Below, piece after piece: positions 17,162-42,849 of a stretch of 64,000 nt of DNA (position 1 is the first letter of the stretch; every line of letters starts with the position of its first letter). Origin of the DNA: Mesocricetibacter intestinalis (lineage in GTDB: Bacteria; Pseudomonadota; Gammaproteobacteria; Enterobacterales; Pasteurellaceae). Where the stretch lies: the NCBI RefSeq assembly GCF_004363295.1, contig NZ_SNYQ01000009.1:1-64000 (forward strand), given 5' to 3'. Under the pieces are notes generated by a model. The model was not told the origin of the DNA. It saw nothing but the letters and a program-made list of their open reading frames with translations, and did not search any database. The translations under genes were made by a program, and so were the position numbers.

Positions 17162-17183
17162 AAAAAAGGAGCCTCAAGGCTCC
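17162..17183 (-). terminator. terminator of the ybiY-ybiW-deoR-fsa operon
   Basis: On the minus strand GGAGCC-TTGA-GGCTCC is followed by six T residues. It lies 18 nt after the aldolase stop codon. Confidence 0.85.
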
Positions 17184-17200
17184 CCGGGAAGAATCCCTAA

Positions 17201-17863
17201 TTACAGACTGTTTTTATTAAAGGCCCGAAACCAATCCTGATCAAATTTATCTATAGCGGCAAATACGGCGGGATCTTGAATAAATAATTCAATAACATCG
17301 GGGCCAACGGTAACGGAACCCGCGCCGGCAAGCATACAATCCAGAACCTGACGCGGGGTGCGGAAGCTTGCGGCGCAAACTTTGGTTTCCGGCTTATGCA
17401 GGCGCAGTAATGTATTTAATTCCCGTACTGCGCAGATGCCGTCGCCACCCTGAGCATCAATCCGGTTGACATAAGGGGCAATATATTTTGCACCGGCCAG
17501 TGCGGCCAAAAATCCCTGTCCGGCGCCGTAAACCGCCGTACCTAAAGTGGGAATACCCTGTTGGGTTAAGGCTTTGATTGCACTTAAGCCTTCGGCGGTA
17601 ACCGGAATTTTTACGATAAGATTATCAATATGTTCCCGCAGGTACTGCGCTTCTTTAATCATTCCCTGGGTATCATGGGCAATGGTTTGTGCGAACAGTA
17701 ATTTATCTTTGCCTATAATCTGTTGCAGCTCGGAAAGTGCGCTTAAAAGCGGGCGTTTTTCTTTAGCGATAATGCTGGGATTGGTCGTAACGCCGTGAAT
17801 CGGTAAAATTTTTGCCAGACGTTCTACATCGGCAAGATTGGCCGTATCGAGAAAGAGTTCCAC
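17201..17863 (-). CDS. fsa: fructose-6-phosphate aldolase (transaldolase-like, FsaA type)
   Basis: A 220-aa FSA-subfamily aldolase, the exact length of E. coli FsaA. The Schiff-base lysine is Lys85 in VKIPVTAEG; other signatures are GVTTNPSI and [12 protein letters not shown]. The family cleaves fructose-6-phosphate, or 1-deoxyfructose-6-phosphate, to glyceraldehyde-3-phosphate plus dihydroxyacetone or hydroxyacetone. I chose the GTG start at 17863 because it aligns with the family N-terminus (MELYLDT in E. coli) and has AGGAG six bases upstream; an ATG at 17899 would overlap the regulator gene. It is the last gene of the glycyl-radical operon. Confidence 0.93.
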
Positions 17864-17888
17864 AATATACTCCTGTTGTGTGATGAGA

Positions 17889-18641
17889 TTAAATTTCAAC
17901 TTTATGTAACGGAATATTCATCTTGTTAAGCAGATGAACGTATTCCGGTGCAATGCCTGAATCGGTAATAAACCCGGCTAGCGGATAAGGGCAAGAATAA
18001 TGATGCGGGAAACTGCGGCCGCATTTACTGGAATCGGTAATAATATAATGTTCGAGATTGCGTTCAAGCAGGGTATTAACCAGCTCCGCCCGTTTGCGGT
18101 TTTTACCGCTGATACCGTCTTCATCGAATCCGTCGATACCGATAAAGGTTTTATCCATTTCCATATTCAGCACCGAACGACAGGCGTTGCGGCCGACCAC
18201 ATAATCGCTGTCTTTTTGGTATTCGCCGCCGAGCAGAAATATTTTGACCGGACTGTCTTTTAACATACGGGCGATATAACAGCTCGGGGTAATAATGGTA
18301 ACCGCTTTATTGTAGGCGATATATTTGGCTAACAGCGAATTGGTGCTGCCCCCTTCAATAAAAACGTAATCTCCATGATTGACCAGAGAAGCGGCGAAGG
18401 TGGCCAGTTTTTGTTTCAAGGCAAAATTAATACTGATCCGAGTTGCGATATCATCGCTGTCCATTGCTACCGCATAGCCGTGGGTTCTTTTCAGATAATG
18501 ATTTTCTTCCAACAGTGTCAAATCCTGACGGATGGTTACCTCGGAAACCTGATTCATTTGTGCCAGTTCGCTGACCTTGATTTGTCCTTTTTTAAAAACC
18601 TGTAAAATAATATTTTGTTGTCGTTCGTTCAGCCGGTTCAT
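17889..18641 (-). CDS. DeoR-family transcriptional regulator (YciT-like)
   Basis: A 250-aa DeoR regulator. The N-terminal winged helix-turn-helix ([16 protein letters not shown] then [19 protein letters not shown], about residues 1-55) is followed by a C-terminal sugar-phosphate-sensing DeoRC domain ([42 protein letters not shown]). It most resembles E. coli YciT in sequence. The open frame continues 80 codons upstream into the ybiW gene in another frame; the start at 18641, just after the 28-bp palindrome, is the real one. Position inside the operon suggests it controls these genes in response to a sugar phosphate. Confidence 0.9.
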
Positions 18642-18653
18642 CGCCTTTGCCTT

Positions 18654-18681
18654 ATTGGTCGGTAAATATTTACCGACCAAT
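18654..18681. repeat. perfect 28-bp palindrome between ybiW and the DeoR gene
   Basis: The half ATTGGTCGGTAAAT is followed without spacer by its exact reverse complement. It occupies the 52-nt gap between the ybiW stop and the regulator start, ending 12 nt before the ATG. It could be the operator of the DeoR-type regulator, or a hairpin in the mRNA affecting processing or translation of the downstream genes. Confidence 0.85.
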
Positions 18682-18693
18682 GTATCATAAAAA

Positions 18694-21126
18694 CTAGAGG
18701 GAATGTTCCGTTCTTGCAATAATATCGTCCTGAGTTTCAGGTGAAAGTGCGGTAAAAAAGGCTGAATAACCCGCCACCCGTACCACAAGGTCGCGATATT
18801 GATCCGGATCGGCTTTTGCCGCCAGCAGGGTCTGCTTCGAAACCACATTATATTGAATATGCCAACCCTTGTGGACATCAAAGAAGGTACGCAACATCAG
18901 GATCAATTTTTGTCGATCCCGTTCATTCGCCAAGGCTTGAGGGTTGAGTTTTTGATTCAGCAGTACGCCGCCGAGAATTTTCCCCGTCGGTAGTTTACCG
19001 ACCGAGTTAAATACTGCCGTCGGCCCCAATATATCGGTACCGGAAGAAGGGCTGCAGCCTTCCGCCAGAGCGCTCCAGGCTTTACGCCCGTCCGGTGTCG
19101 CCGCAGTTTGTGCGCCGAAAGGGACGTTGGCGGAAATAGATGAGGTACCGGCATAGTAATCACCGCCGATCGGGCCTCTGCCGTAGCGCGGGTTGCGGTA
19201 TTGAGCAAGGGCTTCGATATAGGCTTCATAGGCTTGTACTAACAGCAAATCCACCTCATCGTCGTCATTACCGTATTTCGGGGCTGCATTAAGCAGGCGC
19301 TGACGTAGGATTTCACCCTGGCTACCGCTGAAGTTATTTTCCAACGCTTCGGCCAGTTCCTGCTGCCCGATGTTTCCCTGCTCGAAAACCAGTTTTTTCA
19401 CCGCAGCAAGACTGTTACCGGTATTGGCGATACCTACCTGTAAACCGGAAACCCAGTCATATTTCGCGCCGCCTTCTTTCAGGGTTTTGCCTTTTTCGAT
19501 GCAATCGTCCACCAGTGCCGAACAGATAATATCCTGGACATTATGCTCCAACATGGTATCGATGATATATTCAATTTCGATGGATTTCCGCGTATAGTAT
19601 GCAATCTGCTCGCGCCATTGCGTCATAACTTCGTCAAAGTTATTAAAGTTACCTTGGGAAAGGGATTTTTGTGCCGGCAGGAATATAAGCCCGCTGGTTG
19701 CATCTTTACCGCCGTTTAAGGCGGCCAGAACCACACGCGGGAAATTAATAAAGCTCATTCCCGTACAGCGATACCCCCATTTACCCGGTACGGCGGTTTC
19801 AATACAGCCAATGGCGGAGTAGTCATAGGCATCTTCTCGGCTTACCCCCAGCTTAATAAATTCGGGAATCACGATTTCATCATTATTAAATGCCGGCATA
19901 CCGAACCCGCAACTGATCACCTGAACACAGGCTTGCATAAATTCATTATCAATACCGCTGTGATAGCGTACGCTCAGATTGGGTTGGGTGGAACGCAGAC
20001 GACCGCAGGATTCGAGAATGGTATAAGACAATTCGTTTACCGCATCTTGCGCTTCGCCGTTAACCAGTTTTTGGCCGCCGATGGTTACATTCTGATACAT
20101 AGGACTGCCGGCGGAAGTTTTGGAATGAGAGCCGGAACGAATTTTGTTGATTTCCAGCAGTTTCAGCCAGCAACTATGCAGTAATTCAATGGCTTTTTCC
20201 CGTTCCAAGGTTTTGTCTTTCAGCACCTCCCGTTCATACCAGGGATATAAATATTGATCCAGACGACCGAAAGAAACCGAATGGCCGTTAGACTCGATTT
20301 GTAGAACCAGCATAACAAAGTAGGTAAGCTGTAAGGCCTGCCAGAAGGTTTGCGGCGGACGGTGAGCGATAAGTTCGCAGTTTTCCGCAATTTGCAGCAG
20401 TTCCAACCGCCGCCAGTCGCGTTTTTCATGTCGTGCCATTTCCCGCGCCAGTAGCGCATAGCGTTCAATATAGGCGCTCATCGCTTTTAATGCGATAATT
20501 ACTGCGGTTAAGAATTGATTTTGATAGAACCCTTCCAGTTCGGTCAATTTCACACTTGATTGGCGCGCCTCAACCTTAGCAATTAAACCGTCCAGCCCAT
20601 TTTCCAGAATTAACGGAAAGTTTACCGCCAAATGTGCATCTCCCGAGTTCATATTGCCTTCCGCTTTAATCATCACGGTTTCCAGCAGGGATTTGTGTTC
20701 TTCGCTAAATAAGGCGAAGCATTTATCCACCACGGTTTGGCCGTGCCACCAAGGGCAAACCCGGTGTAGTACTTCTTTATCCTGAGCGCTAACGTTGAAG
20801 CCCGCTCCCGGGCGTTCGCCCAGAATATCGATTTCTTGTTCGATCCAACCGACCGTATATTCCGGAAAAATCGGCGCGGCTTTTGGCGTTTTAGCCTGAT
20901 TTCCCACAATTAATTCATCGTTTTTAATCCAGACGGTTTTTTGTTTTAAATGGTTTTCCAGCGCCAGCGCGCGACGTATTACCGTCGGTTGCGCCAAATG
21001 GCGCTGATAGCTTTCGGTATAATGTTGCGCCCGTTCTACGCAAATATCGGGTTTAATAATATGAATCAGCTCGTTCTTATGGGCCTGAATACGTGCCGTA
21101 ACAGTGGTTAGATCTAATGTTCTCAT
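18694..21126 (-). CDS. ybiW: glycyl radical enzyme, YbiW (PflF) type
   Basis: An 810-aa glycyl radical enzyme, equal in length to E. coli YbiW and similar to it along its whole length. The thiyl-radical cysteine is Cys441 in SAIGCIETAV with Glu443 after it; the glycyl radical site is Gly786 in VVRVAGYSAFF. The GCIE arrangement marks it as a dehydratase/lyase-type GRE and not pyruvate formate-lyase, which has Cys-Cys. E. coli YbiW has been reported to open the ring of 1,5-anhydroglucitol-6-phosphate to 1-deoxyfructose-6-phosphate; the same role is inferred here. It is oxygen-sensitive and needs the adjacent activase, whose gene ends 5 nt upstream. Confidence 0.93.
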   Translation of the reverse strand: MRTLDLTTVTARIQAHKNELIHIIKPDICVERAQHYTESYQRHLAQPTVIRRALALENHLKQKTVWIKNDELIVGNQAKTPKAAPIFPEYTVGWIEQEIDILGERPGAGFNVSAQDKEVLHRVCPWWHGQTVVDKCFALFSEEHKSLLETVMIKAEGNMNSGDAHLAVNFPLILENGLDGLIAKVEARQSSVKLTELEGFYQNQFLTAVIIALKAMSAYIERYALLAREMARHEKRDWRRLELLQIAENCELIAHRPPQTFWQALQLTYFVMLVLQIESNGHSVSFGRLDQYLYPWYEREVLKDKTLEREKAIELLHSCWLKLLEINKIRSGSHSKTSAGSPMYQNVTIGGQKLVNGEAQDAVNELSYTILESCGRLRSTQPNLSVRYHSGIDNEFMQACVQVISCGFGMPAFNNDEIVIPEFIKLGVSREDAYDYSAIGCIETAVPGKWGYRCTGMSFINFPRVVLAALNGGKDATSGLIFLPAQKSLSQGNFNNFDEVMTQWREQIAYYTRKSIEIEYIIDTMLEHNVQDIICSALVDDCIEKGKTLKEGGAKYDWVSGLQVGIANTGNSLAAVKKLVFEQGNIGQQELAEALENNFSGSQGEILRQRLLNAAPKYGNDDDEVDLLLVQAYEAYIEALAQYRNPRYGRGPIGGDYYAGTSSISANVPFGAQTAATPDGRKAWSALAEGCSPSSGTDILGPTAVFNSVGKLPTGKILGGVLLNQKLNPQALANERDRQKLILMLRTFFDVHKGWHIQYNVVSKQTLLAAKADPDQYRDLVVRVAGYSAFFTALSPETQDDIIARTEHSL

Positions 21127-21131
21127 GGCTG

Positions 21132-22034
21132 TTATCCTCCTAAGATAGGGGTGAGATGTTGTTGTTGCGCATATTGTTGGGCGAAAGCCAGCAGTTCAAT
21201 ATCCTCTAAAGGCGTTTGCGGTGCGAGATAGGCTATGTTCAGCAGTTTGTATTTATTCATACCCAGCTTGTGATAGGGCAGGAAATGAATTTCTTTCGCT
21301 TTGGTTTCATGTGCAACAAAATCCACCATAGTGGTTATGGTTGCTTTGTCGGCGTTAAATTGGGGAATCAAAGGGATGCGCACAATGATGTCCGCTTCGC
21401 TCTCGGCAGACAGACGGCGATAGTTATCCAGAATGCGTTTTAACGAACCGCCGGTCCATTGCCGGAAAATATCCGCCTCGGTATGTTTTAAATCCGCCAG
21501 AATTAAATTAAGGTAGGGTAAGGCGGGGGATATTTGCTTCCAGGAAGTATGCAAACAGGTTTCCACCGCCGTATGATAACCCACTTCACGACATCTGCGC
21601 AGCAGTTCAAGAGCCAGTTCCGGTTGCATAAAGGGTTCGCCGCCGGAGAGCGTAACTCCGCCGCCGCTACGCAGATAAAAAGCCCTGTCCTTATGAATTT
21701 CCCGCATAATCTGATCCGGCGATTTTTCTTCTCCACATAGGCTGAGTGCCGTACTCGGACAAAAGTTTTTTAATGCTATATATTCTTCGTTCGAAATTAT
21801 ATCTCTGTTGATGCGAAGATTGTTATTTTCTTTATAAAAAATATGAGGGAAGTTATTCGTACATAGCCGGCAATCCTGTAGGCAGAGGCGATCATCAAAT
21901 AAAAGTTCATAGTTACGGGATTCGCTTTCCGGATTTTGGCACCAGCGACAGGACAGCGAACAGCCTTTAAAAAAGATTACACTGCGGATGCCGGGTCCGT
22001 CATGGGTTGAGTAGCGCTGAATATTGAAAATCAT
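21132..22034 (-). CDS. ybiY: glycyl radical enzyme activating enzyme, YbiY type (radical SAM)
   Basis: A 300-aa radical-SAM activase that would install the glycyl radical on the YbiW-like enzyme. The SAM cluster motif is Cys25-x3-Cys29-x2-Cys32 (KGCSLSCRWCQNPES) and the GGE motif is SGGGVTLSGGEPFMQPE. Between them an insert has Cys51, Cys55, Cys58 and Cys92 (plus Cys100), enough for one extra [4Fe-4S] cluster and not two as in many such activases. First gene of the operon; an FNR/CRP-like dyad lies 75-95 bp upstream. Confidence 0.93.
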   Translation of the reverse strand: MIFNIQRYSTHDGPGIRSVIFFKGCSLSCRWCQNPESESRNYELLFDDRLCLQDCRLCTNNFPHIFYKENNNLRINRDIISNEEYIALKNFCPSTALSLCGEEKSPDQIMREIHKDRAFYLRSGGGVTLSGGEPFMQPELALELLRRCREVGYHTAVETCLHTSWKQISPALPYLNLILADLKHTEADIFRQWTGGSLKRILDNYRRLSAESEADIIVRIPLIPQFNADKATITTMVDFVAHETKAKEIHFLPYHKLGMNKYKLLNIAYLAPQTPLEDIELLAFAQQYAQQQHLTPILGG

Positions 22035-22061
22035 ATAACAACCTCGTTAATTTTGAATGAA

Positions 22062-22067
22062 AGTATA
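22062..22067 (-). promoter_or_regulatory. possible -10 element of the ybiY operon
   Basis: The minus strand reads TATACT here. It is centred about 51 bp from the FNR-like box at 22109-22122, the spacing of a class I activated promoter. Confidence 0.35.
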
Positions 22068-22093
22068 ATTTTCTTCATTCAAAACCTCAACCT

Positions 22094-37000: not shown

Positions 37001-39436
37001 ATGGGTGAGTCTGTTTTCAATCCGACATTGAATCGAAGAAAATTTTTGCAAAGCGCATCACTGGGGGCGGCGGTTGCGGCCGCGGACATCAGTTTACCCT
37101 TTAATGCGATGGCGGCGCCGAAGGAAACGGAAGGCGTAGCGCAAGTAAAGGAGAATAAAAAGGTCTGGGCGGTATGTTCGGTAAACTGCGGCAGTCGTTG
37201 CCCGCTGCGCCTACATGTTCGGAATAATGAAGTGTACCGGGTGGAAACGGATAATATCGGCGACGATCAATATGGTAATCATCAGATCCGCGCCTGCCTG
37301 CGCGGGCGAGCTATGCGACGCAGAATGAATCACCCCGATCGGCTTAATTATCCGATGAAGCGAATCGGCAAACGCGGGGAGGGTAAATTTAAGCGTATCA
37401 GCTGGGACGAAGCCTTGGATACTATTGCGGATAACTTAAAGCGTATCGTCAGAGATTATGGTAATGAAGCGGTTTATTTAAATTATTGTTCCGGTATTGC
37501 GGCCGGAAGCATGACGCGTTCTTCCGCGGTTAATTCCTGCCTTAGCCGTTTAATGAATTGTTACGGCGGATTTTTAAATCAGTACGGAACTTACAGTCGG
37601 GCGCAAATTGCTCGGGCCATGCCCTTTACTTACGGGTCCAATATGGGCAATAGCACCTCCGATATCGCCAATTCAAAGCTGGTGGTTTATTTCGGTAATA
37701 ATCCGGCGGAAACACGAATGAGCGGCGCGGGGATTACTTATCATCTGGAGCAGGCCAGAGAACGTTCTCGGGCGAAAATGATTGTGATTGATCCTCGTTA
37801 TACCGATACGGCGGCAGGGCGCGAAGATGAGTGGATTCCTATCCGACCGGGGACGGACGCCGCATTGGTTTCCGCCATGGCTTATGTGATGATCAATGAA
37901 AACTTGGTGGATCAGGCTTTTCTGGATAAATATTGTATCGGTTATGATGAAAAAACCTTGCCCCCTTCGGCGCCGAAGAATGCCCATTATAAGGCCTATA
38001 TTTTAGGGCAGGGAGAGGACGGCATCGCCAAAACCCCGGCATGGGCGGCGCAGATTACCGCTATTCCGGAACAAACCATTATCCGTCTGGCTAGAGAAAT
38101 CGCTTCAGCCAAACCCTGCTGTATTACCCAGGGTTGGGGGATTCAGCGCCAGTCCAACGGCGAGTTGGCCTGTCGTGCGGTGGCGATGCTGGCAATTTTA
38201 ACCGGTAATGTGGGGATTAACGGCGGGAATTCCGGCGCCAGGGAAAGCACTTTTACCGCACCTATTAAACCGCTGCCGATATTGGATAACCCGGTGAAAA
38301 CCAAAATTCCGGTTTTTCTGTGGACCGATGCCATTGAACGGGGTACGGAAATGACCGCACTTAAAGACGGGGTTCAGGGTAAGGATAAGCTGGAGGTACC
38401 GATCAAGTTCCTCTGGAATTATGCGGGCAATACCATTACCAATCAGCATTCGGACATTAATAGAACCCACCGCATTTTACAGGACGAAAGTAAGTGCGAA
38501 ATGATCGTGGTAATCGAAAACTTTATGACCGATTCGGCTAAATATGCGGATATTTTGCTACCGGATCTGATGACCACGGAACAAGAGGATATTACGCCGA
38601 ATCATTATGCCGGTAATATGGGCTATCTGATTTTCTCGCAAGCTGCGACCACACCGAAGTTTGAGCGTCGTTCCATTTATGATATTACGAGCGATATCGC
38701 CGCACGATTGGGGCGGGATATTTACGATAAATTTACCGAAGGGCGTACTCAGCAGGAATGGCTGCAATATCTTTATGCCCAAACTCGGGAGAAAAATCCT
38801 TTTATGCCGGAATACGAGGAAGTGAAAAAGGCCGGCATCTATAAAATGAAAGATCCCCAAGGGCATTATGTGGCCTATAAGGAATTCCGCGAGGATCCGG
38901 AAAATCACCCGCTGAAAACCCCCTCCGGAAAAATCGAGATTTATTCGGAACGCTTAGCTCAAATTGCCGCCAGCTGGGAGCTGGATCAGCAATCGGTTGT
39001 TCATCCGCTGCCCATTTATCATGCCGGCTTTAACGGCGTTGATGATCCGAAACGCGACAGCTATCCTTTTCAGCTTATCGGCTTCCACCATAAAGGCCGT
39101 ACTCATTCCAGTTATGCAAATATCGACTGGTTGCAAGCGGCCTGTCCTCAGGAACTGTGGATGAATCCCATTGATGCCCAAAATTATCATCTGAAGGACG
39201 GCGATATGGTACGGGTATTTAATGAAATCGGCGAAACCCGCCTGCCGGTTAAGGTTACCCCGCGTATTATGCCGGGGGTACTGGCCATGGGGCAGGGCGC
39301 CTGGCATAAGGCGAATATGTGGGGGGATCGGGTAGATCACGCCGGCTCCATTAATGTGCTTACCACTCAGCGCCCGTCGCCGCTGGCAAAGGGGAATCCT
39401 CAGCATTCCAATTTGGTTCAGGTGGAAAAATTATAG
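37001..39436 (+). CDS. DMSO-reductase-family molybdoenzyme catalytic subunit, YnfE/YnfF-like
   Basis: An 811-aa Mo-bisPGD oxidoreductase with a twin-arginine signal (NRRKFLQSASLGAAVAAADI, residues 11-30). The N-terminal [4Fe-4S] motif CSVNCGSRC begins at Cys59, and the Mo region MTRSSAVN (Ser174/175) is unlike the MTxSWPP of true DmsA. Downstream segments (SAKYADILLPDLMTTEQEDI, TPSGKIEIYSERLAQIA) resemble E. coli YnfE/YnfF, linked to selenate and S/N-oxide reduction. It has its own FNR-type promoter and terminator and no B or C subunit of its own, so it probably uses the dmsBC products encoded after dmsA. Confidence 0.88.
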   Translation: MGESVFNPTLNRRKFLQSASLGAAVAAADISLPFNAMAAPKETEGVAQVKENKKVWAVCSVNCGSRCPLRLHVRNNEVYRVETDNIGDDQYGNHQIRACLRGRAMRRRMNHPDRLNYPMKRIGKRGEGKFKRISWDEALDTIADNLKRIVRDYGNEAVYLNYCSGIAAGSMTRSSAVNSCLSRLMNCYGGFLNQYGTYSRAQIARAMPFTYGSNMGNSTSDIANSKLVVYFGNNPAETRMSGAGITYHLEQARERSRAKMIVIDPRYTDTAAGREDEWIPIRPGTDAALVSAMAYVMINENLVDQAFLDKYCIGYDEKTLPPSAPKNAHYKAYILGQGEDGIAKTPAWAAQITAIPEQTIIRLAREIASAKPCCITQGWGIQRQSNGELACRAVAMLAILTGNVGINGGNSGARESTFTAPIKPLPILDNPVKTKIPVFLWTDAIERGTEMTALKDGVQGKDKLEVPIKFLWNYAGNTITNQHSDINRTHRILQDESKCEMIVVIENFMTDSAKYADILLPDLMTTEQEDITPNHYAGNMGYLIFSQAATTPKFERRSIYDITSDIAARLGRDIYDKFTEGRTQQEWLQYLYAQTREKNPFMPEYEEVKKAGIYKMKDPQGHYVAYKEFREDPENHPLKTPSGKIEIYSERLAQIAASWELDQQSVVHPLPIYHAGFNGVDDPKRDSYPFQLIGFHHKGRTHSSYANIDWLQAACPQELWMNPIDAQNYHLKDGDMVRVFNEIGETRLPVKVTPRIMPGVLAMGQGAWHKANMWGDRVDHAGSINVLTTQRPSPLAKGNPQHSNLVQVEKL

Positions 39437-39719: not shown

Positions 39720-39788
39720 GGACATTCTCTTCGATTTAGCGCTTAATTAGGGCCGCTCAATTTACTTTCACAGAGCATGGGGAAAGAT

Positions 39789-42218
39789 ATGGATAAATCA
39801 ATTTTTAATCCGAATTTACATAGAAGAAAATTTTTAAAAGCCACTTCAGTGGGTGCGGCGGTTGCGGCGGCGGATATCAGCCTGCCTTTTAACGCCATGG
39901 CGGCGGAAACAATGCCGGCTGTATCCGAAAGCGACGAAAAAGTGGTGTGGAGCGCCTGTACGGTAAACTGCGGCAGCCGCTGTCCGTTAAGAATGCACGT
40001 TAAGGATAATAAGATCCTGTATGTGGAAACGGACAATACCGGCAGCGATACTTATAATCTCGATCATCAGGTTCGCGCCTGCTTGCGCGGACGTTCTATG
40101 CGACGCCGAGTGTATAACCCGGATCGCCTCAAATACCCGATGAAACGGGTGGGTAAACGCGGCGAAGGTAAATTTAAACGCATCAGCTGGGATGAGGCCT
40201 TAAGCGAAATCGCCGAATCTCTGCGTAAAAATATCGCCGCATACGGTAATGAAAGTATTTATCTGAATTACGGTACAGGTACGTTGGGCGGCACCATGAC
40301 CAAATCCTGGCCGCCGGCATCTACCATGTTGGCTCGCTTTATGAACTGCATCGGCGGTTATTTGAATCACTACGGCGACTACAGTACCGCACAGATTGCC
40401 GTGGGTCTGGATTATACCTATGGCGGCGGCTGGGCGATGGGTAACGGCATGGCGGATATTCAGAATACCAAATTAGTGGTGTTATTCGGTAATAATCCGG
40501 CGGAAACCCGCATGAGCGGCGGCGGTCTGACCTATTGTATCGAGCAGGCCAGAGAACGTTCCAATGCCAGAATGATTATTATCGATCCGCGTTATACCGA
40601 TACAGGTGCGGGACGGGAAGACGAATGGATTCCGATTCGTCCGGGTACGGATGCGGCTCTTTGTTCCGCTCTGGCCTATGTGCTAATTACCGAAAATATG
40701 GTGGATCAGCCTTTCTTAGATAAATACTGTGTGGGTTACGACGAGAAAACCCTGCCGGCCGATGCGCCGAAAAACGGCCATTATAAAGCCTATATTTTAG
40801 GTCAGGGCGAAGACGGTATTGCGAAAACACCGGAATGGGCGGAAAAAATCACGGGGATTCCGCAAGAGCGTATTATTAAACTGGCGCGTGAAATCGGCCA
40901 GACCAAACCGGTATATATTTCCCAGGGCTGGGGACCGCAGCGTCGCAGTAACGGCGAACTGATTTCTCGCGCCATTGCCATGCTGCCGATTTTAACCGGC
41001 AACGTAGGTATTAGCGGCGGTAACACAGGTGCGCGCGAAAGTACCTATTCGGTACCTTTTGTACGTATGCCGACCCTGAGTAACCCGGTAAAAGCCAGTA
41101 TCCCGATGTTTATGTGGACGGATGCGATTTTCCGCGCCCATGAAATGACGGCGACAACGGACGGTATCCGCGGGGTAGAACGTTTAACTTCACCAATTAA
41201 GGTGATCTGGAATTACGCCAGTAACTGTCTGATTAATCAACATTCCGATATTAATCGTACGCACCAGATTTTACAGGACGAAACACAGTGCGAAATGATC
41301 ATCACCATTGATAACCATATGACGCCGACGGCAAAATACAGCGATATTCTCCTGCCGGATTGTACCGCTTCGGAACAGATGGACTTCTGTCTTGATGCTT
41401 TTGTCGCCAATATGGCCTATGTGATTTTCGCCGATCAGGTCATCAAACCTTCTTTCGAATGCCGCAATATCTACGATATGTTAACGGCGTTGGCAGAGAA
41501 AATGGGGGTTAAACAGCAGTTTACCGAAGGACGCACTCAGGAAGAATGGTTGCGCCATATTTATGCTCAATCTCGCGAGAAATTACCGGAATTACCGAGT
41601 TTTGAGGAATTCAGACAGCAGGGCATCTTCAAAAAAGTCAGCCCGAAAGGTTTCTATATCGCCTATAAGGATTTCCGTGATAATCCTGAGGCTAATCCGC
41701 TGGATACGCCGACGGGTAAAATCGAAATCTATTCTTCCCGACTGGCGGAAATTGCCAAAACCTGGGATCTGAAACAAGATGAGGTTATCCATCCTCTGCC
41801 GGTACATGCGGACAGCTTCGAGCATTATGGCGATCCGCTGATGGAAAAATATCCGTTGCAGTTGACCGGTTTCCATTACAAGGCCCGCACCCATTCCACC
41901 TATGGTAATGTGGACGTATTAAAAGCGGCCAACCCGCAGGAACTCTGGATCAACCCGGTAGATGCACGAGCGCGCGGCATTGAAGACGGCGATCTTATCC
42001 GTATCTTTAACGATCGCGGCGAAGTACGGATTCATGCCAAGGTAACCCCGCGTATTATTCCGAATGTGATTGCTTTGGGCGAAGGGGCTTGGCATGCACC
42101 GGATAATAATCAGGTGGATCATGCCGGCTGCATCAACGTCCTTACCACCCAGCGTCCTTCACCGCTGGCGAAGGGTAACCCGCAGCATTCGAATTTAGTT
42201 CAGGTTGAAAAAGTTTAA
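39789..42218 (+). CDS. dmsA: anaerobic dimethyl sulfoxide reductase catalytic subunit A
   Basis: An 809-aa Mo-bisPGD enzyme that reduces DMSO and related S- and N-oxides. The twin-arginine signal (HRRKFLKATSVGAAVAAADI, residues 11-30) is followed by the [4Fe-4S] motif starting CTVNCGSRC (Cys57) and the Mo-ligand Ser173 in GTMTKSWPPAST, as in E. coli DmsA. DILLPDCTASEQMDF is also DmsA-like. An ATG at 39777 is in frame; 39789 was chosen because MDKSIFNPNL aligns with the MGESVFNPTL start of the preceding paralogue. It heads dmsABC and stops 10 nt before dmsB. Confidence 0.96.
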   Translation: MDKSIFNPNLHRRKFLKATSVGAAVAAADISLPFNAMAAETMPAVSESDEKVVWSACTVNCGSRCPLRMHVKDNKILYVETDNTGSDTYNLDHQVRACLRGRSMRRRVYNPDRLKYPMKRVGKRGEGKFKRISWDEALSEIAESLRKNIAAYGNESIYLNYGTGTLGGTMTKSWPPASTMLARFMNCIGGYLNHYGDYSTAQIAVGLDYTYGGGWAMGNGMADIQNTKLVVLFGNNPAETRMSGGGLTYCIEQARERSNARMIIIDPRYTDTGAGREDEWIPIRPGTDAALCSALAYVLITENMVDQPFLDKYCVGYDEKTLPADAPKNGHYKAYILGQGEDGIAKTPEWAEKITGIPQERIIKLAREIGQTKPVYISQGWGPQRRSNGELISRAIAMLPILTGNVGISGGNTGARESTYSVPFVRMPTLSNPVKASIPMFMWTDAIFRAHEMTATTDGIRGVERLTSPIKVIWNYASNCLINQHSDINRTHQILQDETQCEMIITIDNHMTPTAKYSDILLPDCTASEQMDFCLDAFVANMAYVIFADQVIKPSFECRNIYDMLTALAEKMGVKQQFTEGRTQEEWLRHIYAQSREKLPELPSFEEFRQQGIFKKVSPKGFYIAYKDFRDNPEANPLDTPTGKIEIYSSRLAEIAKTWDLKQDEVIHPLPVHADSFEHYGDPLMEKYPLQLTGFHYKARTHSTYGNVDVLKAANPQELWINPVDARARGIEDGDLIRIFNDRGEVRIHAKVTPRIIPNVIALGEGAWHAPDNNQVDHAGCINVLTTQRPSPLAKGNPQHSNLVQVEKV

Positions 42219-42228
42219 GGAGTAAGGG

Positions 42229-42849
42229 ATGAGCGAACAATACGGCTTTTATTTTGACTCGGAACGTTGCACCGGCTGTAAGACCTGTGAACTGGCCTGT
42301 AAAGATTATAAAGATCTGGGTACCGATGTGAATTTCCGGCGGATTTACGAATATGCGGGAGGCGAATGGCAACAGCAGGCGAACGGCTGCTGGAATCAGA
42401 ACGTCTTCGCCTATTACCTGTCTATTTCCTGCAACCATTGCGATAATCCGGCTTGTACCAAGGTTTGTCCGACCGGTGCCATGCACAAGAACGAAGACGG
42501 TTTCGTTATTGTTAATGAAGATACCTGTATCGGCTGTCGCTATTGCCATATGGCCTGTCCGTACGATGCACCGCAATATGATGCGGCAAAAGGACATATG
42601 ACCAAATGCGACGGTTGCTACTCACGCGTAAAAGCGGGGCAAAAACCGATTTGTGTGGAGGCCTGCCCGCTGCGTGCGTTGGACTTCGCTCCAATCGAAG
42701 AGCTGCGCGCCAAATATGGTGATATTGCTGCAGTAGCGCCGCTGCCGCCGCAGGAATATACCCAACCAAATCTGGTGGTGAAACCGAATAAAAACAGCCG
42801 CCCGAGCGGAGATACCAGCGGTTTCTTAGCAAATCCGAGAGAGGTATAA
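42229..42849 (+). CDS. dmsB: DMSO reductase iron-sulfur subunit B
   Basis: A 206-aa ferredoxin-like electron-transfer subunit with four [4Fe-4S] cysteine groups: CTGCKTCELACKDYKDL (about residues 16-32), CNHCDNPACTKVCPTGAM, CIGCRYCHMACPYDAP and CDGCYSRVKAGQKPICVEACPLRAL. It carries electrons from DmsC to DmsA. Shine-Dalgarno AAGGAGTAAGGG precedes the start. It is coupled to dmsC (1-nt gap after the stop) and could also serve the YnfE/F-like subunit encoded upstream. Confidence 0.97.
   Translation: MSEQYGFYFDSERCTGCKTCELACKDYKDLGTDVNFRRIYEYAGGEWQQQANGCWNQNVFAYYLSISCNHCDNPACTKVCPTGAMHKNEDGFVIVNEDTCIGCRYCHMACPYDAPQYDAAKGHMTKCDGCYSRVKAGQKPICVEACPLRALDFAPIEELRAKYGDIAAVAPLPPQEYTQPNLVVKPNKNSRPSGDTSGFLANPREV

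Follow-up and report, generated by a model that had tools for sequence, protein, structure and literature searches.

A probable anaerobic 1,5-anhydroglucitol operon with a built-in YciT-clade regulator in Mesocricetibacter intestinalis

The 64,000-nucleotide stretch of Mesocricetibacter intestinalis DNA analysed here (contig NZ_SNYQ01000009.1, positions 1 to 64,000; hereafter the window) carries on its minus strand four genes encoding, in order, a radical S-adenosylmethionine activase, a glycyl radical enzyme (GRE), a DeoR-type regulator and a fructose-6-phosphate aldolase (FSA), with intergenic gaps of 5, 52 and 25 nt. This layout, gap lengths included, had been put forward in an earlier sequence-only reading of the window and is borne out by the coordinates. 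The host genome (2.21 Mb in 18 contigs) and that of Chelonobacter oris are both assigned to the Pasteurellaceae. The enzyme set is that of a known pathway, the breakdown of 1,5-anhydroglucitol (AG), in a family where the pathway is rare. What is new is the arrangement of the regulator, which, taken together with the operator data described below, suggests that the known but unexplained Escherichia coli protein YciT can be assigned to this pathway.

The first gene (21132..22034, minus strand) encodes a YbiY-like protein of 300 aa with a Radical_SAM domain, in which Cys25, Cys29 and Cys32 form the motif CX3CX2C. It scores 338.6 bits against TIGR02494 (cut-off 174.35), which places it among the GRE activases, and is 57% identical to E. 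coli YbiY. The last gene (17201..17863, minus strand; 220 aa, GTG start) encodes an FSA with a TAL_FSA domain, and the protein exceeds the cut-offs of both NF009296 (317.6 bits, cut-off 306) and TIGR00875 (267.1 bits, cut-off 245.95). It retains Lys85 of FsaA, within LIVKIPVT, which is presumably the Schiff-base lysine, as well as D6, T26, N28, Q59, T109, A129, Y131, R134 and S166, and differs at 187 and 188; we take all of these to be active-site positions. E. coli FsaA reportedly cleaves 1-deoxyfructose-6-phosphate to glyceraldehyde-3-phosphate and hydroxyacetone.

Between them lies the gene for the GRE (18694..21126, minus strand; 810 aa), which contains PFL-like and Gly_radical domains and is a probable 1,5-anhydroglucitol-6-phosphate (AG6P) dehydratase of the YbiW type. 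The protein aligns with E. coli YbiW without a gap over 810/810 positions, 598 of the 810 residues being identical (73.8%), and the three best matches among solved structures are 6xs4, 8id7 and 8yjn, the latter two of which are named YbiW. The catalytic cysteine, Cys441, lies in GCIET and the radical glycine, Gly786, in RVAGYSAFF; for these residues, as for Lys85 of the FSA, the sequence-only reading was correct. An alignment of 73 enteric and five Orbaceae GREs, from which two incomplete loci (L053 and L086) were excluded, contains 477 invariant columns, and 450 of these are kept here, as are 230 of the 248 invariant columns that differ in PflD. None of the 27 departures falls inside the Cys441, Gly786, SNGHS or NPRYGRGP loops. 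The Cys441 loop matches that of YbiW except at Pro447, which is Gly in YbiW and also Pro in Zophobihabitans and PflD, and the SNGHSVSFGR and NPRYGRGP segments are identical to their YbiW counterparts. With a full-length gap-free alignment, the catalytic cysteine, the radical glycine and the YbiW loops all present, the protein appears to belong to the YbiW type. Because it aligns in this way and keeps the YbiW catalytic loops, the AG6P route, already proposed in the sequence-only reading, is the best reading of its activity in this organism, and the assignment is well supported at the level of sequence.

Two other activities were weighed. According to the review PMC12441222, YbiW and PflD convert AG6P and 1,5-anhydromannitol-6-phosphate, respectively, to 1-deoxyfructose-6-phosphate after uptake by the phosphotransferase system (PTS). 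PflD thus yields an identical product from the mannitol epimer, and the GRE might conceivably act on this or another anhydro-sugar phosphate related to AG6P; the FSA, moreover, is slightly closer to FsaB (135/220 residues identical) than to FsaA (125/220), and fsaB sits in the pflD region. However, the GRE is 38.1% identical to PflD (290 of 762 aligned residues) as against 73.8% to YbiW, and it agrees with YbiW and not with PflD in its YGRGP insertion as well as in the loops that surround Cys441 and SNGHS. A PflD-like substrate was rejected on this comparison and is retained as a minor rival, which we consider improbable. Still less credible, to the point of being very nearly dismissed, is the reading that the family annotation would suggest, of a generic set for pyruvate formate-lyase or glycerol dehydratase. 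Although the family-level models bear those names (TIGR01774, PF02901), the GRE falls well under the cut-offs of the models for pyruvate formate-lyase (160 against 994 bits), choline lyase (458 against 1050) and hydroxyproline dehydratase (521 against 1100), the YbiW structures match better than glycerol dehydratase does (1396 versus 576 bits) and the partner gene encodes an FSA; the generic set was rejected on the structure matches and the curated model scores. Two other glycyl-radical matches occur in the genome, at G000:C1:233773-235335 (29% identical, in an 802-aa open frame) and G000:C3:261780-261953 (in a 139-aa open frame), and we take these to be, probably, PflB and GrcA.

The third gene of the operon (17889..18641, minus strand; 250 aa) encodes the DeoR-type regulator, with HTH_DeoR and DeoRC domains, and several comparisons place it in the YciT clade. 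A tree of the DeoR family with 37 rows unites its 13 YciT-type members, including this protein, in one group that has support of 100/99 and recurs in 100% of 200 bootstrap trees; the top NCBIfam model is YciT (NF040887). When E. coli YciT is the query, this regulator is the top match in the genome (6e-62; next 7e-25); when this regulator is the query, the YciT-clade gene comes first in Enterobacter (6e-64; next 7e-26), Salmonella (6e-64; next 1e-29) and Klebsiella (5e-61; next 5e-22). Within the HTH domain, 10 consecutive residues are the same as in E. coli YciT, and a comparison of the regulator with solved structures gave no match at 1e-3. The regulator is probably a built-in counterpart of YciT.

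In PMC8464067, YciT is described as having ChIP-exo (chromatin immunoprecipitation with exonuclease digestion) peaks upstream of ybiUVWY and fsaA and a palindromic motif, and deletion of yciT alters the expression of ybiV, ybiY and fsaA; the pathway is called uncharacterised there, and a role in osmolarity is proposed. The preprint PMC12132413 finds the ybiYW promoter active anaerobically (one replicate with glucose and ampicillin showed activity too), with YciT enriched near -5, and PMC7567609 lists YciT at phnA by mass spectrometry. A literature search covering mostly non-subscription papers returned no text joining YciT with anhydroglucitol, and the link may have been published before.

The operon resembles the E. 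coli ybiY-ybiW/fsaA locus with YciT in having the same three enzymes, a regulator of one clade and the same operator consensus at the promoter. In E. coli, however, ybiV and ybiU follow ybiW and yciT lies ~480 kb away, whereas here the operon includes the regulator and FSA genes and has neither ybiV nor ybiU next to it. The sequence-only reading had described E. coli ybiY, ybiW and fsaA as lying together, which holds for their adjacency but not for a shared operon, as fsaA in K-12 is divergently transcribed from ybiYW; it had also noted that E. coli lacks this DeoR gene inside, which is true of the locus, although the clade-mate YciT is encoded elsewhere on that chromosome. A second E. coli system, frwBCD-pflDC-ptsA-fsaB-gldA, which serves 1,5-anhydromannitol-6-phosphate, shares the logic of GRE, activase and FSA but, unlike the operon described here, has its own PTS, gldA and the regulator gene yijO (whose product we take to be of the AraC type), in addition to its more distant GRE.

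Just upstream of the activase gene lies the predicted operator, ACTTTCATTCAAAATT (22049..22064, minus strand). In enterics and Orbaceae, ybiY is preceded at ~50 bp by a palindrome, ACTTTCnTTCGAAAGT, and the consensus ACTTTCNTTCGAAAGT was first read by eye from the ybiY promoters of E. coli and five Orbaceae; because those six promoters gave rise to it, they do not count as independent among the 81 loci (E. coli K-12 and 80 others). Within 250 bp upstream of the activase is found the best consensus match of the locus in 73/81 cases, with ties in 8, and the best match starts at -44 to -54 in 80/81, the exception being Chelonobacter (12/15 bases, at -205). Many enterics also have a second-best site just before ybiV or ybiU. 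The operator in this genome agrees with ACTTTCNTTCGAAAGT at 13/15 fixed positions. A weight matrix whose training set comprised ybiY sites alone (80 loci, all of them non-Pasteurellaceae, giving 16 distinct cores) has its top match in the whole window, both strands considered, at this operon promoter (14.0; next 12.9); in controls, 1/1000 column-permuted matrices place their best window match there, and 11/2000 shuffled upstream regions score as high. The site overlaps an inverted repeat, TTTTGAATGAA - 12 nt - TTCATTCAAAA (22051..22084, no strand), which is one of 8 inverted pairs listed within a 241-bp stretch. It also overlaps the -10 element of a promoter-like sequence, TTGAGG - 17 nt - TATACT (22062..22090, minus strand), although promoter-like matches are equally common in shuffled sequence (11 versus 9.1).

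Related sites fall at corresponding genes elsewhere. Across seven whole genomes the consensus occurs with no more than one mismatch at 8 places, every one of them before ybiY, ybiU, ybiV or fsa. One such site in Zophobihabitans stands 33 bp upstream of an FSA coding sequence, the product of which is 66% identical to the FSA described here and which is ~1.4 Mb by coordinates from the ybiYW of that genome. The three best sites of the Frischella locus precede the activase gene, a Lac-family PTS IIA gene and fsa, and for the latter two, 0/1000 shuffles each score as high. When 81 E. coli genes are ranked by the matrix (hand-picked from nine fetched stretches, with pseudogenes, insertion sequence genes and several small or cut genes excluded), the 11 published YciT targets stand at 1, 2, 5, 6, 7, 8, 23, 26, 46, 52 and 70; ranks 1 and 2 are ybiY and fsaA, which have one shared site, and once these are removed, and ybiU from the controls, the comparison of 9 targets with 69 others yields p = 0.015 (one-sided). 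Third comes pdeR and fourth ybiU; as pdeR is two genes ahead of yciT, the match in front of it may mean that YciT controls the region around its own gene. Inspection by eye shows an FNR-like box, TTGACGCACATCAA, ahead of the operator in the ybiY promoter of E. coli, and boxes resembling CRP sites, TGTGA-N6-TCAC, ahead of the operators in the Orbaceae promoters (L008-L012).

Comparison with relatives shows how the regulator gene is distributed with respect to the GRE. A survey of 140 Pasteurellaceae genomes, proposed alongside the sequence-only reading, found both to be rare, the GRE (E<=1e-150) and the regulator (E<=1e-45) occurring in the same two, this one and Chelonobacter oris; because both queries came from this genome, what carries information is that the sole other GRE genome is also the sole other regulator genome. 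Among the 80 named loci kept from a species-level genome collection (the best 80 of 232 relatives), GRE identity is 88% in Chelonobacter, 77-81% in five Orbaceae and 72-74% in the other 74 loci, nearly all labelled Enterobacteriaceae. A regulator homologue stands beside the GRE in 6/80 loci, namely Chelonobacter and the five Orbaceae (L007-L012), where the adjoining gene is of the YciT clade in 6/6, and in 0/74 of the others within the fetched flank; fsa adjoins the activase gene on the opposite strand in 58/74 of those others. Chelonobacter has the same four-gene order, but with Glc-family PTS IIA and IIBC genes downstream, and Frischella has, upstream, a second gene of the YciT clade together with fsa and PTS genes of the Lac family. 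In the five Orbaceae the regulator gene is ~270-1420 nt from that of the GRE, with another open frame between them in three (L008, L009 and L011), and only in the Pasteurellaceae pair does the regulator gene follow that of the GRE at 52-60 nt and precede fsa. The operon neighbours differ between these two genomes, and therefore the operon has moved or been rearranged; a GRE tree, its bootstrap not settled, fixes neither branching order nor horizontal origin. In 17 Pasteurellaceae relatives, topZn-tsaC-aroE occur together without GRE or FSA within a 1.5-kb flank, but comF and nfuA are also missing from that flank, and therefore no clean empty site is shown.

These data bear on what the regulator responds to. 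It could be that a YciT-clade regulator answers to osmotic or general stress and that its operon position is unrelated to the metabolites of the pathway: PMC8464067 gives YciT 49 ChIP-exo sites, ybiO and ompX among them, and has the yciT deletion growing worse at high salt on sorbitol. We think this unlikely, as the operators with at most one mismatch in the seven genomes are confined to ybiY, ybiU, ybiV and fsa, the regulator gene adjoins that of the GRE in every fetched non-enteric relative, and the two genes share their distribution across the Pasteurellaceae. YciT is probably a dedicated AG6P-pathway regulator; the earlier claim that the DeoR protein regulates the pathway gains support from its YciT clade and the shared operator. 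Going further, we somewhat favour the view that in Enterobacterales YciT is dedicated to controlling anhydroglucitol catabolism and senses AG6P or 1-deoxyfructose-6-phosphate, and that ACTTTCNTTCGAAAGT also marks candidate transporters, the Lac-family PTS in Frischella and possibly the Glc-family PTS in Chelonobacter. On this view, its being built into the operon in this window would reveal the function of the regulator.

Uptake of AG and the fate of hydroxyacetone were followed through the genome. The statement of the sequence-only reading that no transporter or hydroxyacetone reductase is encoded nearby stands as far as seven tblastn queries of the window reach (E. coli GldA, PtsA, FrwB and FrwC and three PTS proteins of relatives), none of which gave a match. 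Elsewhere the genome encodes five PF02378-type and two mannose-type PTS permeases; the three that were compared with curated models score above the cut-offs set for permeases of N-acetylglucosamine, sucrose and beta-glucoside. The PTS genes of this genome were rejected as regulon members, no good operator being present in the fetched loci (L087-L091, L093, L096 and L097; best 9.6), and the GldA-like gene in L092, the single GldA match, was rejected as a clear hydroxyacetone reductase, being 34% identical and under every curated cut-off listed. AG uptake may proceed via a broad PTS, and hydroxyacetone may be excreted or reduced by another enzyme. The Glc-family PTS IIA and IIBC genes downstream of fsa in Chelonobacter oris (L007, 12362-14512, plus strand) are a candidate AG transporter; the permease encoded there has no close relative in this genome (best 35%, of the N-acetylglucosamine type). 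An 11-mer, ATACTTTCATT, which was noticed before counting and includes a -10-like hexamer, occurs twice in the Chelonobacter locus, before the operon and before the PTS genes (0.01 expected); the 16-base matrix has no significance at that PTS site (145/1000 shuffles as high). In Frischella japonica (L010, 3650-6831, minus strand), the second YciT-clade regulator gene, Lac-family PTS IIA, IIB and IIC genes and fsa are divergent from activase-GRE-DeoR, an island that would amount to a nearly complete pathway.

Taken as a whole, the operon is likely to be an anaerobic catabolic unit for AG that combines the YbiY-YbiW-FSA pathway with its own YciT-clade regulator. Several observations weigh against this interpretation. 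The regulator scores under the NF040887 cut-off (259.3 versus 450 bits) and is filed as a member of the clade and not of the model, and in E. coli, YciT has the other targets and the osmotic phenotype cited above (PMC8464067), while 5/11 of its published targets rank 23 or lower with the matrix. In Chelonobacter the matrix scores best inside the activase gene (12.7) and at -205 (12.6) and gives 9.6 at the promoter; the operator there is therefore weak or changed. The operator in this genome carries two mismatches, and two-mismatch matches are not above control, either here (3 versus 9 with a reversed pattern) or across the seven whole genomes (36 rows of all kinds versus 62), so that the site rests on its position, matrix rank and relatives and not on genome-wide rarity. 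In this genome, no dedicated AG transporter was identified and no clear hydroxyacetone reductase was found. Finally, the support for the AG6P pathway here is sequence-based: gene order, family membership, regulator clade and the operator-like site over the promoter are read from the DNA, and the pathway chemistry (via the review PMC12441222) and YciT binding come from literature on E. coli.

In the mechanism that we propose, AG would enter the cell and be phosphorylated by a PTS encoded elsewhere, the activase would install the glycyl radical in the GRE, and the GRE would convert AG6P to 1-deoxyfructose-6-phosphate, as in E. coli, for cleavage by the FSA to glyceraldehyde-3-phosphate and hydroxyacetone, likewise by analogy with E. 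coli. The DeoR-type protein would bind the predicted operator at the operon promoter and most likely repress until AG6P or 1-deoxyfructose-6-phosphate is bound in its DeoRC domain, thus sensing a phosphate of the pathway, and the operon would be used anaerobically. The same regulator-operator pair would control ybiYW and fsa in enterics, with the regulator acting in trans, and would do likewise in Orbaceae, where the regulator gene forms a separate unit next to that of the GRE; Chelonobacter oris and the organism described here have the gene inside the operon.

The arrangement links YciT, whose binding sites are mapped and whose pathway is unexplained, with an AG route whose regulator goes unnamed in the accessible part of the review PMC12441222, and the built-in counterpart found here thus suggests a function for the E. 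coli protein. AG is a sugar of blood and food, and the operon very likely permits its use without oxygen. It is studied as a diabetes marker and is the precursor of the toxic phosphate in two neutropenias. With a known switch for bacterial AG breakdown, induction and uptake would be directly testable in E. coli K-12.

Other elements were noted within and around the operon. In the GRE-DeoR gap is a 12-bp stem-loop without a T-run (18654..18681, minus strand; fold z-score -3.4, with 0/200 shuffles folding equally well), and Chelonobacter has at the equivalent position a 12-bp stem of different sequence, also without a T-run (z -3.1); conceivably, this stem could damp expression of the regulator. 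Hairpin scanning and folding place a terminator-like hairpin 3' of the FSA gene (17166..17185, minus strand), although the scan counts 8 such hairpins against a similar number, a mean of 7.3, in shuffled sequence. An Rfam scan of the window at the gathering threshold found 5S rRNA and tRNA only. Further along the window are tandem genes for catalytic subunits resembling dimethyl sulphoxide (DMSO) reductase (37001-39436 and 39777-42218, plus strand; 811 and 813 aa), followed by a gene for an iron-sulphur subunit-like protein (42229-42849, plus strand), all named by eye; ATACTTTCATT occurs once more at 40248, inside a DMSO-reductase-like gene. Among the enteric-type loci, five with other neighbours (L064, L070, L076, L082 and L083) have no transporter beside the GRE that was recognised by eye, and Salmonella arizonae and diarizonae (L042 and L049) have no fsa next to ybiYW and a ybiV orientation opposite to that of other enterics. 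In a record titled Chryseobacterium (L085), the ybiYW locus is of the enteric type and includes ybiV and ybiU; the assembly is probably mislabelled or mixed.

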